64,000 nucleotides of DNA from Mariprofundus sp. KV (lineage in GTDB: Bacteria > Pseudomonadota > Zetaproteobacteria > Mariprofundales > Mariprofundaceae), in the NCBI RefSeq assembly GCF_013387475.1, contig NZ_VWNB01000004.1:1-64000 (forward strand), given 5' to 3'. How positions within the stretch are numbered: position 1 is the first letter of the stretch; every line of letters begins with the position of its first letter. The notes beneath the pieces were generated by a model, which searched no databases, was not told the origin of the DNA, and was given only the letters and a program-made list of their open reading frames with translations. Position numbers and translations under genes: made by a program. This document shows positions 5,060 through 12,865 of the stretch, one piece after another.

Positions 5060-5485
5060 GTGGCCAAATTTCTATTGAGGGACAACTGTGAAAATCTGCA
5101 GGGTTTGATGGGGCTCAGCCGAAGCGAGTTAGCATATTACTGGGAGAGGACGTTTGGATATGCACCACCAAAGCGGTGCGGCATTGACTTGTTACAAGCG
5201 GCACTTGCCTGGCAGTTGCAAATGGAGCAGCTACCAAAGCAGAGTTTTGCAGAGGCCAATCAGATATTTAGACGCATCAGGAAGTGGAAACCTCCAACTT
5301 TTAATTTATCTCTATCCCCTGGAACACGGCTGCTGCGTGAATGGCAAGGGAAGACTCATCACGTAACCGTACTGGAAAAGGGTTTTGAGCATGATGGAGA
5401 GAAGTATAGAAGCCTGTCAGCAATAGCCAGAAAGGTAACCGGAACCCCTTGGTCGGGCCCTAAGTTTTTCGGATTAAAACCGTGA
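5060..5485 (+). CDS. DUF2924 domain protein, partner of the recombinase
   Basis: A 141-residue protein starting at GTG 5060; the ATG at 5058 is out of frame and stops quickly, and GGAGG at 5049-5053 suits the GTG. It has the DUF2924 pattern: an N-terminal LxGLSRSELAYYWERTFG stretch, a middle LLxAAxAWxLQ helix, and a C-terminal GTRLLREWQG...HHVTV strand region. From family knowledge, DUF2924 genes recur directly upstream of large serine recombinases in integrative elements. A role as DNA-binding cofactor or directionality factor is inferred. Its stop overlaps the recombinase start. Confidence 0.85.
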   Translation: MAKFLLRDNCENLQGLMGLSRSELAYYWERTFGYAPPKRCGIDLLQAALAWQLQMEQLPKQSFAEANQIFRRIRKWKPPTFNLSLSPGTRLLREWQGKTHHVTVLEKGFEHDGEKYRSLSAIARKVTGTPWSGPKFFGLKP

Positions 5486-7149
5486 GAAATTATAAGGCTT
5501 GTGCGATCTATACCCGCAAGTCTTCAGAAGAGGGGCTGGGGCAGGAGTTCAACTCTCTGGACGCACAACGCGAAGCGTGCGAGGCATATGTTCTTAGTCA
5601 GAAAGCCGAGGGCTGGAGAGCCATTAAAACCAAGTATGACGATGGTGGTTTCTCAGGCGGTAATACTGAGCGCCCTGCACTGGCACAGCTCATGGCTGAT
5701 GTTGAGGCTGGAAAGATTAAGGTGTTGGTAGTCTACAAGGTCGATCGATTGACCAGGTCCCTTGCCGACTTTGCCAAACTGGTTGAGCTTTTTGATGAGC
5801 ATGGTGTCTCATTTGTATCAGTAACTCAGCAGTTCAACACTACCAGTTCCATGGGGCGACTGACACTTAATGTGCTTTTATCCTTTGCCCAGTTTGAGCG
5901 TGAAGTCACTGGTGAGCGTATCCGAGATAAGATCGCCGCCTCCAAGCGGAAAGGGATGTGGATGGGAGGTATACCACCGATTGGTTATATTCCGCATGAA
6001 CGCACTCTACAGGTTGAGCCAAAACAGGCAGAGAAGGTGCAGTCAATTTTCCAGCTTTATTTAGAGTTAAAGTTTGTCAGCGCCTTAAAAGAGAAGCTTG
6101 ATGCAATGAGCTGGGTAACACCGGTTAGATTCACCCGGAAGGAAAAGCAGGTCGGCGGCAAGCCGTTCAGTCGAGGGCATCTCTATCGTATTTTGCGCAA
6201 TCCAATTTACATAGGGAAGATTGTTCATAAAGACAAAAGATATAACGGTAATCACCCTGCAATCATTAATGAAGAAATCTGGGATGCGGTTCAGGCGCTT
6301 CTTGATGAAAATCATATCTCCCACAAAAGCCGTAAAAGAGCAGCGCATCCGAGTCTGCTGACGGGGCTGTTGTTTGATGAACATGGCAACAAACTTACAC
6401 CGAGTCATACAACGAAAGGAAAGCGCCGCTACCGTTATTATATATTACAACACCCAATTGATGGCTCTTTGGTAGGTCAGCCTGCTCTTCGAGTGCCTGC
6501 ACAAGAATTGGAACGAACCGTTATTACATCTTTGGCTGGGTTCTTAAATGATAAGGCGAGATTGCTTGAATTGATCGGAATGAAAGATGCCGCAGAAACT
6601 CAAAGGGTGCTGAAGCAGGCTACTCAGCATGCAGAGGCACTCACAAAATCGACTGCATCAGACAGGGTCGAATTGCTGAACAGACTTGTTATGCGGATAG
6701 AGCTTTATCAGGACAAGCTTATCATTATAATAAATAGTAAAGCGTTATTGGTTACGAAGACTTCTGATAGTATAGAGCTTGTTGTGCCTGTGGAGCTGAA
6801 ACGCTGCGGCATGGCTATGAAGCTGGTTGTTAGGGCTCCGGCCAGCTCTGAAACCAGAGCTCCTGACCTTAAGCTTCTGGCTCTCATCGCCAAAGGGAAT
6901 CAGTGGTTCACCAAGCTGATATCAGGTCAGTGCGATAGTGTTCAACAGGTAGCACAAGAGGTTGGTGTCAGTAGTTCCTATTGTACGCGACTTATTTATC
7001 TCTCATTTTTGGATCCGTCGATCATTCAATTACTGCTGGATGGGAAGCAACCACCAGAACTCAATGCTGATCAACTCAAACGATGTGTGCCGTTACCGGT
7101 TGATTGGAGCGAACAGCATAAGCTCCTTGGCTTCGAAAAACGATTCTGA
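5482..7149 (+). CDS. large serine recombinase (site-specific integrase)
   Basis: A 555-residue recombinase starting at GTG 5482. The N-terminal resolvase domain (about 1-150) has the catalytic serine in YTRKSS (Ser14), the arginine-rich VDRLTRSLADF region and the SSMGRLTLNVLLSFAQFER helix. A recombinase domain follows at about 160-270 (RGHLYRILRNPIYIGKIVHK). The zinc-ribbon region lacks cysteines, as in one common subgroup. The C-terminal part contains a putative helix-turn-helix (VAQEVGVSSSYCTRLIYL). It would integrate and excise the island by attP/attB exchange. It is the last intact gene before the right flank. Confidence 0.93.
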   Translation: MRNYKACAIYTRKSSEEGLGQEFNSLDAQREACEAYVLSQKAEGWRAIKTKYDDGGFSGGNTERPALAQLMADVEAGKIKVLVVYKVDRLTRSLADFAKLVELFDEHGVSFVSVTQQFNTTSSMGRLTLNVLLSFAQFEREVTGERIRDKIAASKRKGMWMGGIPPIGYIPHERTLQVEPKQAEKVQSIFQLYLELKFVSALKEKLDAMSWVTPVRFTRKEKQVGGKPFSRGHLYRILRNPIYIGKIVHKDKRYNGNHPAIINEEIWDAVQALLDENHISHKSRKRAAHPSLLTGLLFDEHGNKLTPSHTTKGKRRYRYYILQHPIDGSLVGQPALRVPAQELERTVITSLAGFLNDKARLLELIGMKDAAETQRVLKQATQHAEALTKSTASDRVELLNRLVMRIELYQDKLIIIINSKALLVTKTSDSIELVVPVELKRCGMAMKLVVRAPASSETRAPDLKLLALIAKGNQWFTKLISGQCDSVQQVAQEVGVSSSYCTRLIYLSFLDPSIIQLLLDGKQPPELNADQLKRCVPLPVDWSEQHKLLGFEKRF

Positions 7150-10797: not shown

Positions 10798-11568
10798 TTG
10801 GCCGAAAACGAACTTTTTCTAAAAACGTATTTGAGGGAAATCGGTGTGCAGACACCGGTTTCCCTTTTTACATCCGGGCCGAGGATTTCAGCGGCGGAAT
10901 CTGCTGCTGCATCTGCATCGACGCAGTCAGCATCAACGCGACCGGCTGCTGAGCAGGCTGCGATTGTTGAGCTCTCCGCGATGCCTGAGGGCGAACGCTC
11001 TGAAACTAACTCCGGCACTCTCGCTGCGCTGGCTGAGAAGGCGGCAACCTGTCGACTTTGCGGGCTGGCTGAAACGCGAACGCAGGTGGTGTTTGGCGTT
11101 GGCAATCCGAATGCCGATATTGTTTTTATTGGTGAGGCGCCGGGGCGCGATGAGGATGCAAAGGGTGAGCCGTTTGTCGGTCGAGCCGGTCAGTTGCTTG
11201 ACCGTATGCTGGCTGCAATCGATCTGGATCGTGACAGGGCTTATATTATGAACACCATCAAATGCCGGCCACCGAATAATCGCGACCCGCGTATGGATGA
11301 GGTGCAATCCTGTAATTTGTGGTTTGAACAGCAGCTTGAGCTGTTGCAGCCGAAGATGATCTGCCTGTTGGGGCGTGTGGCAGCACAGACTGTGCTGGAG
11401 ACAGATGCCCCATTGGGCTCGCTGCGCGGGCAGTGGCATGATTATCAGGGTATACCGGTATGGGTAACCTATCATCCAGCTTACCTGTTACGCTCTCCTG
11501 CGCAGAAGCAGAAAAGCTGGCTTGATCTGCAGGCGCTTGCTTCGCGTTATAATCAGCTGAACTCCTGA
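10798..11568 (+). CDS. family 4 uracil-DNA glycosylase
   Basis: A 256-residue protein starting at TTG 10798. Residues 30-75 are a low-complexity Ala/Ser-rich linker. The catalytic domain shows the iron-sulfur family-4 pattern: CRLC near 82-85, [18 protein letters not shown] with GRAGQLLD, a further Cys in [13 protein letters not shown], Cys in QSCNLW, and the HPAYLLR motif. It removes uracil from DNA. The N-terminal extension resembles the tail fused to some phage-polymerase-like UDGs and has no clear domain. fbp lies 22 bp upstream, so read-through is plausible. Confidence 0.92.
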
Positions 11569-11686: not shown

Positions 11687-11758
11687 TTAGATCAGTGCGC
11701 CGCCTATATAAAAGCCGGTCAGTGTAATCAGTGAAATAGCGATATCGAATTCAAACAT
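11687..11758 (-). CDS. FDIA micro-protein 3 (23 aa)
   Basis: ATG at 11758 preceded by GGAGGG at optimal spacing. The 23-residue product starts M-F-E-F-D-I-A and continues as a single hydrophobic helix rich in Leu, Ile, Thr and Gly, ending in GGALI. It aligns without gaps, apart from one extra residue, with the two micro-proteins upstream. Shared positions are F4, D5, I6, A7, L12-L14 spacing, a small residue/Cys at 15, an aromatic at 16-17 and a terminal Ile. One acidic residue and a short helix fit a tiny inner-membrane peptide. Function unknown. Confidence 0.72.
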   Translation of the reverse strand: MFEFDIAISLITLTGFYIGGALI

Positions 11759-11817
11759 AGTGTCTCCCTCCAGAGTGGTGTGATGGGGAGAAGTATGCCG
11801 TGGTGCCCTATCAACAA

Positions 11818-11833
11818 TGTGGCAATTGTCACA
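11818..11833. promoter_or_regulatory. CRP/FNR-family-type palindrome before micro-gene 3
   Basis: TGTGG-CAATTG-TCACA matches TGTGA-N6-TCACA with one mismatch. Its centre is about 67 bp upstream of the micro-gene ATG. A -10-like CATACT on the minus strand lies at about the distance expected for a class II CRP-dependent promoter. Confidence 0.55.
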
Positions 11834-11867
11834 CAATGTTAAATTGTTAAGGGTGTTCTAAAGAAAA

Positions 11868-11936
11868 TCAGATCGATGCGCCGATGAAGATGCAGCTGAG
11901 TGCGAGTGCCGTATAGGCGATATCAAATTTAAGCAT
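11868..11936 (-). CDS. FDIA micro-protein 2 (22 aa)
   Basis: ATG at 11936, with TGGAGG then seven T residues upstream. The product begins M-L-K-F-D-I-A-Y and forms one hydrophobic helix with a Cys at position 15, ending IGASI. It is strongly similar to micro-protein 1, while the codons differ at many third positions, which is the pattern expected of selection on the peptide. The gene lies between its two paralogues on the same strand. Candidate roles are a small subunit of a membrane complex, a regulator, or a type I toxin-like peptide; none is supported directly. Confidence 0.75.
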   Translation of the reverse strand: MLKFDIAYTALALSCIFIGASI

Positions 11937-11942
11937 AAAAAA

Positions 11943-11966
11943 ACCTCCAGTCGTTTTGATGGAGGT
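11943..11966 (-). terminator. terminator-like hairpin whose 3' arm contains the SD of micro-gene 2
   Basis: On the minus strand ACCTCCA and TGGAGGT form a perfect 7-bp stem with a 10-nt loop, followed directly by T7 and the ATG of micro-gene 2. It can end transcription of micro-gene 1. In a read-through transcript it would hide the Shine-Dalgarno sequence of micro-gene 2. If micro-gene 2 uses its own promoter, transcription would start inside or below the stem and the SD would be free. Confidence 0.6.
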
Positions 11967-11994
11967 AGTGTCGGATGAATCGGTTGCGTGTGCC

Positions 11995-12010
11995 TGTGTT
12001 CAGGGTCACA
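11995..12010. promoter_or_regulatory. CRP/FNR-family-type palindrome before micro-gene 2
   Basis: TGTGT-TCAGGG-TCACA matches TGTGA-N6-TCACA with one mismatch. Its centre lies 66-67 bp upstream of the micro-gene 2 ATG, the same distance as for micro-gene 3. Confidence 0.55.
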
Positions 12011-12025
12011 ACTCTCTACAGATGA

Positions 12026-12094
12026 TTAAATTGAGGCAGCTACGAAAAAACAGGCGAGTGTCAGCGTTGCGTATGCAATGTCGAACTTGATCAT
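12026..12094 (-). CDS. FDIA micro-protein 1 (22 aa)
   Basis: ATG at 12094 with AAGGAG seven bases upstream. The 22-residue product begins M-I-K-F-D-I-A-Y and continues as a hydrophobic helix with Cys15, Phe16-Phe17 and a C-terminal AASI. It shares M-x-[KE]-F-D-I-A, the hydrophobic pattern and the terminal Ile with the other two. It is the first and most upstream of the three. The lysine at position 3 and aspartate at 5, followed by an uninterrupted hydrophobic run, suggest a single-pass membrane peptide. Confidence 0.75.
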   Translation of the reverse strand: MIKFDIAYATLTLACFFVAASI

Positions 12095-12164
12095 GATCTA
12101 CTCCTTAATCTTACTCCCTCTTGGCAAGGGGGCGCGGAACACTGCGCAGGAGCAGGTGCCAAAC

Positions 12165-12180
12165 CGTGACCCGGATCACA
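12165..12180. promoter_or_regulatory. CRP/FNR-family-type palindrome before micro-gene 1
   Basis: CGTGA-CCCGGA-TCACA matches TGTGA-N6-TCACA with one mismatch at the outer base. It is about 78 bp upstream of micro-gene 1 and about 117 bp upstream of the divergent isomerase gene, so it could serve either. Confidence 0.5.
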
Positions 12181-12289
12181 CTTTTTCAAGATGGCGGTTT
12201 ATTGTCTGATTGATGCGGCAGCTTCTAATCCATAGGCTTGCTGTTCTCTCGCTGTTGAGTTGGCGAGAGCTACACAGGGAGAGTTGCGC

Positions 12290-12865
12290 ATGAGACGATT
12301 GATCAGGGTTGCTTTTTTTTGTTCATTGCTGGCGATGTCGTCTCTGCAGGCCGGAGCCGCTGAGGGTAACCGCCATGTCGAGATTCAGACAAACAAAGGT
12401 AACATCGAGATTGAACTCTATGCAGACAGGGCGCCGGAGAGTGTGAAAAACTTTCTCAGATATGCGTTGGCATCTGCCTATGATGACACTATTTTCCACA
12501 GAGTTATTCCCGGCTTTATGATTCAGGGCGGCGGTTACGAAGCTAGCTTTAGAGAGAGAACAACGCTTGCGCCGATCAAAAGCGAGGCAGACAACGGCAT
12601 GAAAAATCTTCGTGGTACTGTTGCTATGGCGCGCACCTCTGACCCGCACTCGGCTACCTCCCAGTTCTTTATCAACCTGAAGGATAACGGTTTTCTCAAT
12701 TTCCGATCCCGTAATATCAATGGTTGGGGTTATACCGTGTTCGGTAAGGTGACTGCAGGCATGGATGTCGTTGATGCGATCGCCATGGTGCCAACCACCT
12801 CGGCAAGAGGGCACAATGATGTGCCTGTTGAGCCGGTTGTGATCAAGGGTGTTGTTATCAAATAA
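12290..12865 (+). CDS. cyclophilin-type peptidyl-prolyl isomerase, exported
   Basis: 191 residues from ATG 12290, with GGGAGAG upstream; the longer in-frame start lacks a signal-like N-terminus. Residues 1-24 form a Sec signal peptide (MRR, hydrophobic core, cleavage near AGA-AEG), so it works in the periplasm. The cyclophilin core has FHRVIPGFMIQGGG, the catalytic Arg in FHRV, MARTSDPHSATSQFFINL, and GYTVFGKV. It speeds proline isomerisation in exported proteins, like PpiA. It is monocistronic and convergent with tRNA-Thr. Confidence 0.94.
   Translation: MRRLIRVAFFCSLLAMSSLQAGAAEGNRHVEIQTNKGNIEIELYADRAPESVKNFLRYALASAYDDTIFHRVIPGFMIQGGGYEASFRERTTLAPIKSEADNGMKNLRGTVAMARTSDPHSATSQFFINLKDNGFLNFRSRNINGWGYTVFGKVTAGMDVVDAIAMVPTTSARGHNDVPVEPVVIKGVVIK

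Follow-up and report, generated by a model that had tools for sequence, protein, structure and literature searches.

Membrane microproteins are usually found singly, beside the complex that they serve. Among very small proteins made from short transcripts, AzuC of Escherichia coli and VcdP of Vibrio cholerae (29 aa) are tied to carbon metabolism, and act by binding an enzyme (GlpD, GltA), which they adjust (PMC8672173). In comparisons of CRP orthologues among bacteria, TGTGA-N6-TCACA is the reference site (PMC5449483).

The locus described here lies in a window (i.e., the whole stretch of DNA analysed, 64,000 nucleotides) from a Mariprofundus genome of 2.53 Mb in 28 contigs (G000). The host bacteria, marine iron oxidisers, are known for living on Fe(II), and little genetics is available for them. 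A literature search on small proteins, or on control by CRP/FNR, in Mariprofundus returned nothing on point, and the microprotein regulatory arrangement presented below is apparently undescribed, no account of it having been found in the papers searched.

Three micro-ORFs of 22, 22 and 23 codons, all on the minus strand and referred to as the FDIA family, lie in an intergenic gap. The gap is bounded by two plus-strand genes, one for a family-4-like uracil-DNA glycosylase (10798-11568, PF03167) and one for a cyclophilin (12260-12865, PF00160). The initial annotation had placed three minus-strand ORFs of 22-23 codons here, each with a good Shine-Dalgarno (SD) sequence and a CRP-type operator of its own, and had considered such genes too small for normal annotation. 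The coordinates were confirmed almost to the base, an SD can be read before every ORF, the sizes do fall under the usual gene-caller limit, and the one-mismatch box before each ORF is kept in relatives. The features of the locus are the following.

12094-12026, minus strand: micro-gene A1, 22 aa, MIKFDIAYATLTLACFFVAASI; SD AAGGAG; pooled pN/pS of 0.09 over four close orthologues
11936-11868, minus strand: micro-gene A2, 22 aa, MLKFDIAYTALALSCIFIGASI; SD TGGAGG; 64% identity to A1, with an A1/A2 pN/pS of 0.16
11758-11687, minus strand: micro-gene B, 23 aa, MFEFDIAISLITLTGFYIGGALI; SD GGAGGGAG; pooled B pN/pS of 0.29
12165-12180: CRP-type operator of A1, TGTGATCCGGGTCACG on the minus strand; one mismatch; centre 78 bp before the ATG
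11995-12010: CRP-type operator of A2, TGTGACCCTGAACACA; one mismatch; centre 66 bp before the ATG
11818-11833: CRP-type operator of B, TGTGACAATTGCCACA; one mismatch; centre 67 bp before the ATG
12139-12144, minus strand: -10-like hexamer of A1, CAGTGT, read from the sequence 20 nt past the operator
11967-11972, minus strand: -10-like hexamer of A2, GACACT, read from the sequence 22 nt past the operator
11792-11797, minus strand: -10-like hexamer of B, CATACT, read from the sequence 20 nt past the operator

A few kilobases away, at 5482-7149 of the window, lies a 555-aa ORF that resembles a serine recombinase (named from its own sequence), a possible remnant of a mobile element.

Within the 64 kb window, no TGTGA-N6-TCACA match with at most one mismatch exists beyond these three, and 2.76 are expected by chance. 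A count of three is thus no more than chance would give and is no proof in itself; the proof is carried by placement and conservation. By arithmetic, the chance of a box at a matched distance before a homologous ORF is approximately 1e-3 per ORF and 1e-9 for three; boxes so placed before three homologous ORFs are not chance. On comparison of sequences, the decisive support for the locus is its conservation in related genomes, where nearly every FDIA copy has its own TGTGA-N6-TCACA box. The A1 operator stands in the same register in G001, G008, G012, G019 and G020, the A2 operator is identical in G001, and the register of the B operator is kept in all nine other B orthologues.

The claim of the initial annotation that the peptides look selected is borne out by codon change that is overwhelmingly synonymous. 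Over eight independent sister comparisons, 14, 3 and 42 differences fall at codon positions 1, 2 and 3 (P 3e-9), i.e., third positions account for 42 of the 59. The initial annotation had also named a refutation test, concerned with whether conserved ORFs and third-position enrichment exist; it was run, both are present, and the claim survived. The pooled pN/pS values listed above (close A orthologues, B, and A1 vs A2) come with 3' flanks that diverge faster than the ORF in eight of eight sister pairs (flank divergence of 10-69%). On these patterns, the FDIA ORFs are judged to be protein-coding genes under purifying selection, with translation predicted.

The peptides are 22-23 aa long and hydrophobic, the best 17-residue hydropathy being about 1.8-2.0. 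Across 19 peptides, Asp5 is invariant and position 3 is Glu or Lys, while small residues occupy both position 15 and position 19 in 17 of them, mostly as GxxxG, GxxxA or CxxxG/A; small-x3-small is the classic pattern of packed transmembrane helices. Pfam, NCBIfam and PHROGs hold no FDIA match, and the sole PDB match is at chance level (cytochrome b6f subunit 5, E 1.2), which led us to reject membership in a known protein family. Together with the further micro-ORF families described below, FDIA adds new families to an established class, the membrane microproteins.

A peptide profile search found the family in 10 of the 23 Mariprofundus genomes. Three copies are present in G000 and G001, A and B in G008, G012, G019 and G020, and B alone in G003, G010, G016 and G017; B is hence the copy shared by all ten, and A2, a paralogue of A1, is limited to G000 and G001. 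Orthologues occupy the same genomic place in the nine other Mariprofundus genomes, among them Mariprofundus ferrooxydans PV-1, M. micogutta ET2 and Mariprofundus MAGs, and G008 and G012 are single-contig genomes (2.30 and 2.54 Mb). Since the family is missing from 13 of the 23 genomes, some of them nearly complete, FDIA is not essential there. The upstream neighbour varies (cyclophilin or rsmE-type), and the FDIA genes persist despite the change. A leader peptide or 3'UTR artefact was rejected on the grounds that in Mariprofundus the following gene is convergent and that the FDIA genes survive a change of upstream neighbour.

Among 299 genomes sampled across the phylum, FDIA profile matches at E <= 0.001 were confined to Mariprofundus. 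In another genus of the same taxonomic family (g10), a relative, MIEFDVMLPALILGAFFIGQTLFD, was found by searching for the box-plus-SD pattern; a second g10 genome has MMELDIILAAGSLAGFFLIQSLVS, and a third has MSELDVLLPALILGTFFIGQILLD, an independent profile match (E 8e-5). All three g10 copies have a box-like sequence upstream, which in G047 is CGTGATACGGCGCACA, and an xAxxxT hexamer 21 nt past the box. The context differs in g10, where the FDIA gene stands directly ahead of a UDG-superfamily gene on the same strand. A UDG-superfamily glycosylase gene is thus near FDIA in both genera (L307, L047 and L331 vs 10798-11568 of the window), yet the two glycosylases differ, the g10 gene being downstream on the same strand and the Mariprofundus gene convergent. 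Phage and plasmid records contain no FDIA match, and an origin from either was rejected for that reason.

Promoter layout was read from 36 promoters of transmembrane micro-ORFs aligned on the box. A hexamer with A at its second and T at its sixth position occurs at a gap of 20 or 21 in 84% of the 36, and other gaps give 0-8%. All three window copies have the xAxxxT hexamer 20-22 nt past the box, and the B hexamer in G001 and G008 is CATACT or GATACT with spacing unchanged. Matches to a -10 element are poor in A1 and its orthologues (CAGTGT, GAGGGT), and a consensus sigma-70 promoter was found on neither strand of the region. A gap of 20-21 nt from box to -10 is class II spacing, with CRP at -41.5, and it is this predicted class II CRP geometry that the FDIA promoters have.

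Two CRP/FNR proteins are shared by the four Mariprofundus genomes checked. One, the CRP orthologue, keeps the equivalents of the E. coli cAMP contacts Glu72, Arg82, Ser83, Thr127 and Ser128, and those of the contacts to TGTGA in DNA (Arg180, Glu181 and Arg185). Each of the four genomes also has 5-9 matches to class III cyclase domains. Given a CRP with both sets of contacts, 5-9 cyclase-domain genes and a box of the reference type, a cAMP-CRP reading is favoured, not proven, and activation by the CRP orthologue is strongly suggested by these sequence features. The CRP/FNR-family control proposed in the initial annotation stands as to the family, and it can be narrowed to a cAMP-type CRP, which is more likely than an FNR-type oxygen sensor. 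No box with at most two mismatches lies within 300 bp upstream of the two CRP/FNR genes, and autoregulation of both was accordingly rejected.

The initial annotation missed that FDIA is one of several micro-ORF families under one promoter layout. Near-consensus boxes number 82 in the genome vs 35 for the reversed control, and the box-spacer-SD-ATG layout occurs 5-15 times per Mariprofundus genome vs 0-3 in the reversed control. Across Mariprofundus, the ORFs read behind about 100 box-SD-ATG sites include at least six further micro-ORF families that share this promoter layout; their members are 31-58 aa long and for the most part have a single span.

31-40 aa: family whose peptides end in 'VGVMGFTTSIL'; an hslV-like gene lies downstream in both genomes read
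34-36 aa: family with 'KHSHD...YG'
41-44 aa: family with 'LQIPLA'
43-52 aa: His-rich family with one span
34-52 aa: family ending in 'TFPRPLF', with no span
53-58 aa: family with 'NNMM(D/N)', with no span

Those tested gave no Pfam, NCBIfam or PHROGs match. Comparing FDIA with two other micro families by hhalign gave nothing in one case and 27.6% probability over 15 hydrophobic columns in the other, and kinship with them is for that reason not claimed. In the source genome, micro-ORFs make up seven of the 12 pattern matches, two of the remaining five having been examined. Of 30 boxed SD-ATG starts, 15 (50%) are followed by a transmembrane micro-ORF, vs 8 of 213 unboxed ones (3.8%); the Fisher P of 1.5e-10 is only indicative, since the loci were partly fetched by the operator pattern and include orthologues.

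Other boxed targets are an RNase J-like protein of the metallo-beta-lactamase fold, YdjM-like (below the Pfam cut-off) and OmpW-like (by resemblance, with no Pfam match) envelope proteins, a Fer4_19 protein, and secreted proteins of 95-129 aa. The presence of envelope proteins, an RNase J-like protein and an Fe-S protein as co-targets indicates envelope and energy housekeeping rather than a single enzyme. Before the RNase J-like gene, a conserved TGTGA-N7-CAC box is found 55-75 bp from the start in many Mariprofundus genomes (L188 minus strand, at 1993 of the reverse strand, L227, L233, L254, L262 and others).

Several boxed loci were noted in passing. Beside the FDIA gene of G017 (L072:6035-6400 and 6534), there are single-span micro-ORFs of 38, 35 and 31 aa, two of them boxed. 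The source genome has boxed single-span micro-ORFs of 52 and 44 aa at G000:C2:66635-66714 and on, and at G000:C24:201169-201250 (L184, L190). In g5, a further genus of the same taxonomic family, G026:C9:10114-10702 (L312) holds two single-span micro-ORFs in tandem (36 and 35 aa), both with a CRP-type box of their own; the architecture is FDIA-like and the peptides are unrelated. A palindrome, TGTGAACTATTTCACA, recurs with one-base variants about seven times among the listed near-consensus box sites (G000:C21:37159, C25:61015, C2:93568, C5:71842, C11:247849 and others), and it seems to be a distinct motif or repeat outside the CRP-type class.

The reading we prefer, with a probability of about 0.6, is that the locus encodes three independently promoted, CRP-activated, single-span inner-membrane microproteins that tune a membrane complex and that were multiplied as cassettes. 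Each gene would be activated by a regulator of the cAMP-CRP type that binds at about -41.5 (class II), and driven by the -10-like hexamer 20-22 nt downstream of the operator and a strong Shine-Dalgarno sequence. Growth of the family in this lineage would have come from duplication of the whole operator-promoter-SD-ORF cassette, A1 giving rise to A2. The peptide is predicted to insert as a single helix of approximately 17 residues, with its acidic N-terminus (E/K3 and the invariant D5) at one face of the membrane, and the conserved small-x3-small face (15/19) may pack against a partner helix. When cAMP rises, the peptide would tune a membrane protein complex. We infer that such tuning is probably what the FDIA peptides do; no linkage of FDIA genes to any membrane complex was seen. 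FDIA would be one branch of a wider Mariprofundus microprotein gene set with a common promoter layout.

Some features of the locus recall other systems. Size, hydrophobicity and tandem duplication are reminiscent of Ibs (19 aa) and ZorO (29 aa) (PMC8309996), and FDIA might be type I toxin-like peptides that depolarise the membrane on de-repression and are restrained by antisense RNA, as in Ibs/Sib and ZorO/OrzO. We consider this improbable. The consensus sigma-70 promoter, the type searched for, is absent on both strands; the predicted mRNAs show less structure than shuffled sequences do (z 0.7 to 1.4), and there is therefore no sign of a blocked SD; the promoters are conserved, activator-type and followed by strong SDs. 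Moreover, FDIA peptides have no C-terminal basic residues, phage and plasmid records are void of them, and D5 is invariant, whereas IbsC toxicity tolerates N-terminal deletion (PMC8309996). Dual-function or regulatory RNAs in which the ORF is secondary, like VcdRP or AzuCR, are also to be weighed, given that short CRP-linked transcripts encoding proteins of about 29 aa are known (PMC8672173). Here, however, it is the codons that are conserved, in sister pairs whose 3' flanks have diverged; no structure beyond that of shuffles and no minus-strand terminator were found, and Rfam has no family for the locus. An RNA role of this kind is very improbable, and a structured RNA was rejected, Rfam being empty and folding no better than for shuffles.

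An unlikely but somewhat better alternative is that FDIA peptides are co-induced accessory subunits of a respiratory complex, like CydX of cytochrome bd or subunit IIa of ba3 oxidases. Small accessory oxidase subunits do exist (PMC4325964; PMC3128077), and both the single span with a conserved packing face and CRP/FNR-family control would suit them. Yet the neighbours in the loci read are UDG, cyclophilin and rsmE-type genes, and oxidase or other respiratory genes never adjoin FDIA there; presence in the genus is patchy, with up to three paralogues, and the Pfam, NCBIfam and PDB results reported above stand against it as well. Toxin, dual-function RNA and oxidase subunit are all less well supported than tuning of a complex. 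The initial annotation had offered small subunits or regulators of a membrane complex alongside type I toxin-like peptides, and its interpretation as a whole is partly supported. A different question is which protein acts at the boxes, as the same microproteins could be run by the other CRP/FNR protein, with a signal other than cAMP, perhaps redox or a metabolite. This protein is present in all four genomes checked, has a REV(I/V)SR recognition helix close to that of CRP and a TCMLTTSCLL motif, and keeps the DNA contacts. It does not keep the cAMP pocket, missing the equivalents of Arg82-Ser83 and Thr127-Ser128, and the CRP orthologue holds all the TGTGA contacts. Control by the second protein is doubtful.

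With the CRP orthologue as the preferred regulator, the best reading of the wider data is that the cAMP-CRP regulon contains many single-span inner-membrane microproteins and has expanded in part through promoter-plus-ORF duplication. A bolder version, to which we give somewhat less than even odds, is that the cAMP-CRP regulon of iron-oxidising Zetaproteobacteria is largely given to many unlinked, duplicated cassettes for single-span membrane microproteins, which jointly re-tune membrane complexes in answer to cAMP. The wider set of boxed micro-ORFs is more interesting than the three genes alone: one promoter signature picks out a whole microprotein set by computation, in a gene class that lies under gene-caller limits and is clearly selected. 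If true, this offers a simple route to unannotated microproteins elsewhere, and the CRP orthologue is a likely master switch, so that function becomes testable through deletion of one regulator.

In comparison with class II CRP promoters, those described here share the TGTGA-N6-TCACA box, the 20-21 nt to the -10 and the want of a recognisable -35, but in Mariprofundus, where CRP binding is predicted, what follows this layout is chiefly micro-ORFs, with some envelope genes. Ibs/Sib and ZorO/OrzO are likewise tandem copies of very short hydrophobic ORFs, whereas FDIA has neither a predicted antisense promoter nor an inhibitory leader, and has a conserved acidic N-terminus and activator-type promoters. 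CydX, CydY and CydZ of cytochrome bd are likewise very small membrane proteins with one span, and they too are difficult to annotate (PMC4325964); they are encoded in cydAB operons, while FDIA genes stand alone, each with its own promoter, and have no Pfam or NCBIfam model. The vcdRP gene is repressed by CRP and includes a base-pairing RNA, in contrast with the activator geometry and tandem paralogues of FDIA, whose genes give no sign of an RNA function. Although no sequence kinship with FDIA was seen, AzuC and VcdP, in acting through binding to an enzyme, are by analogy the closest functional model for the FDIA peptides.
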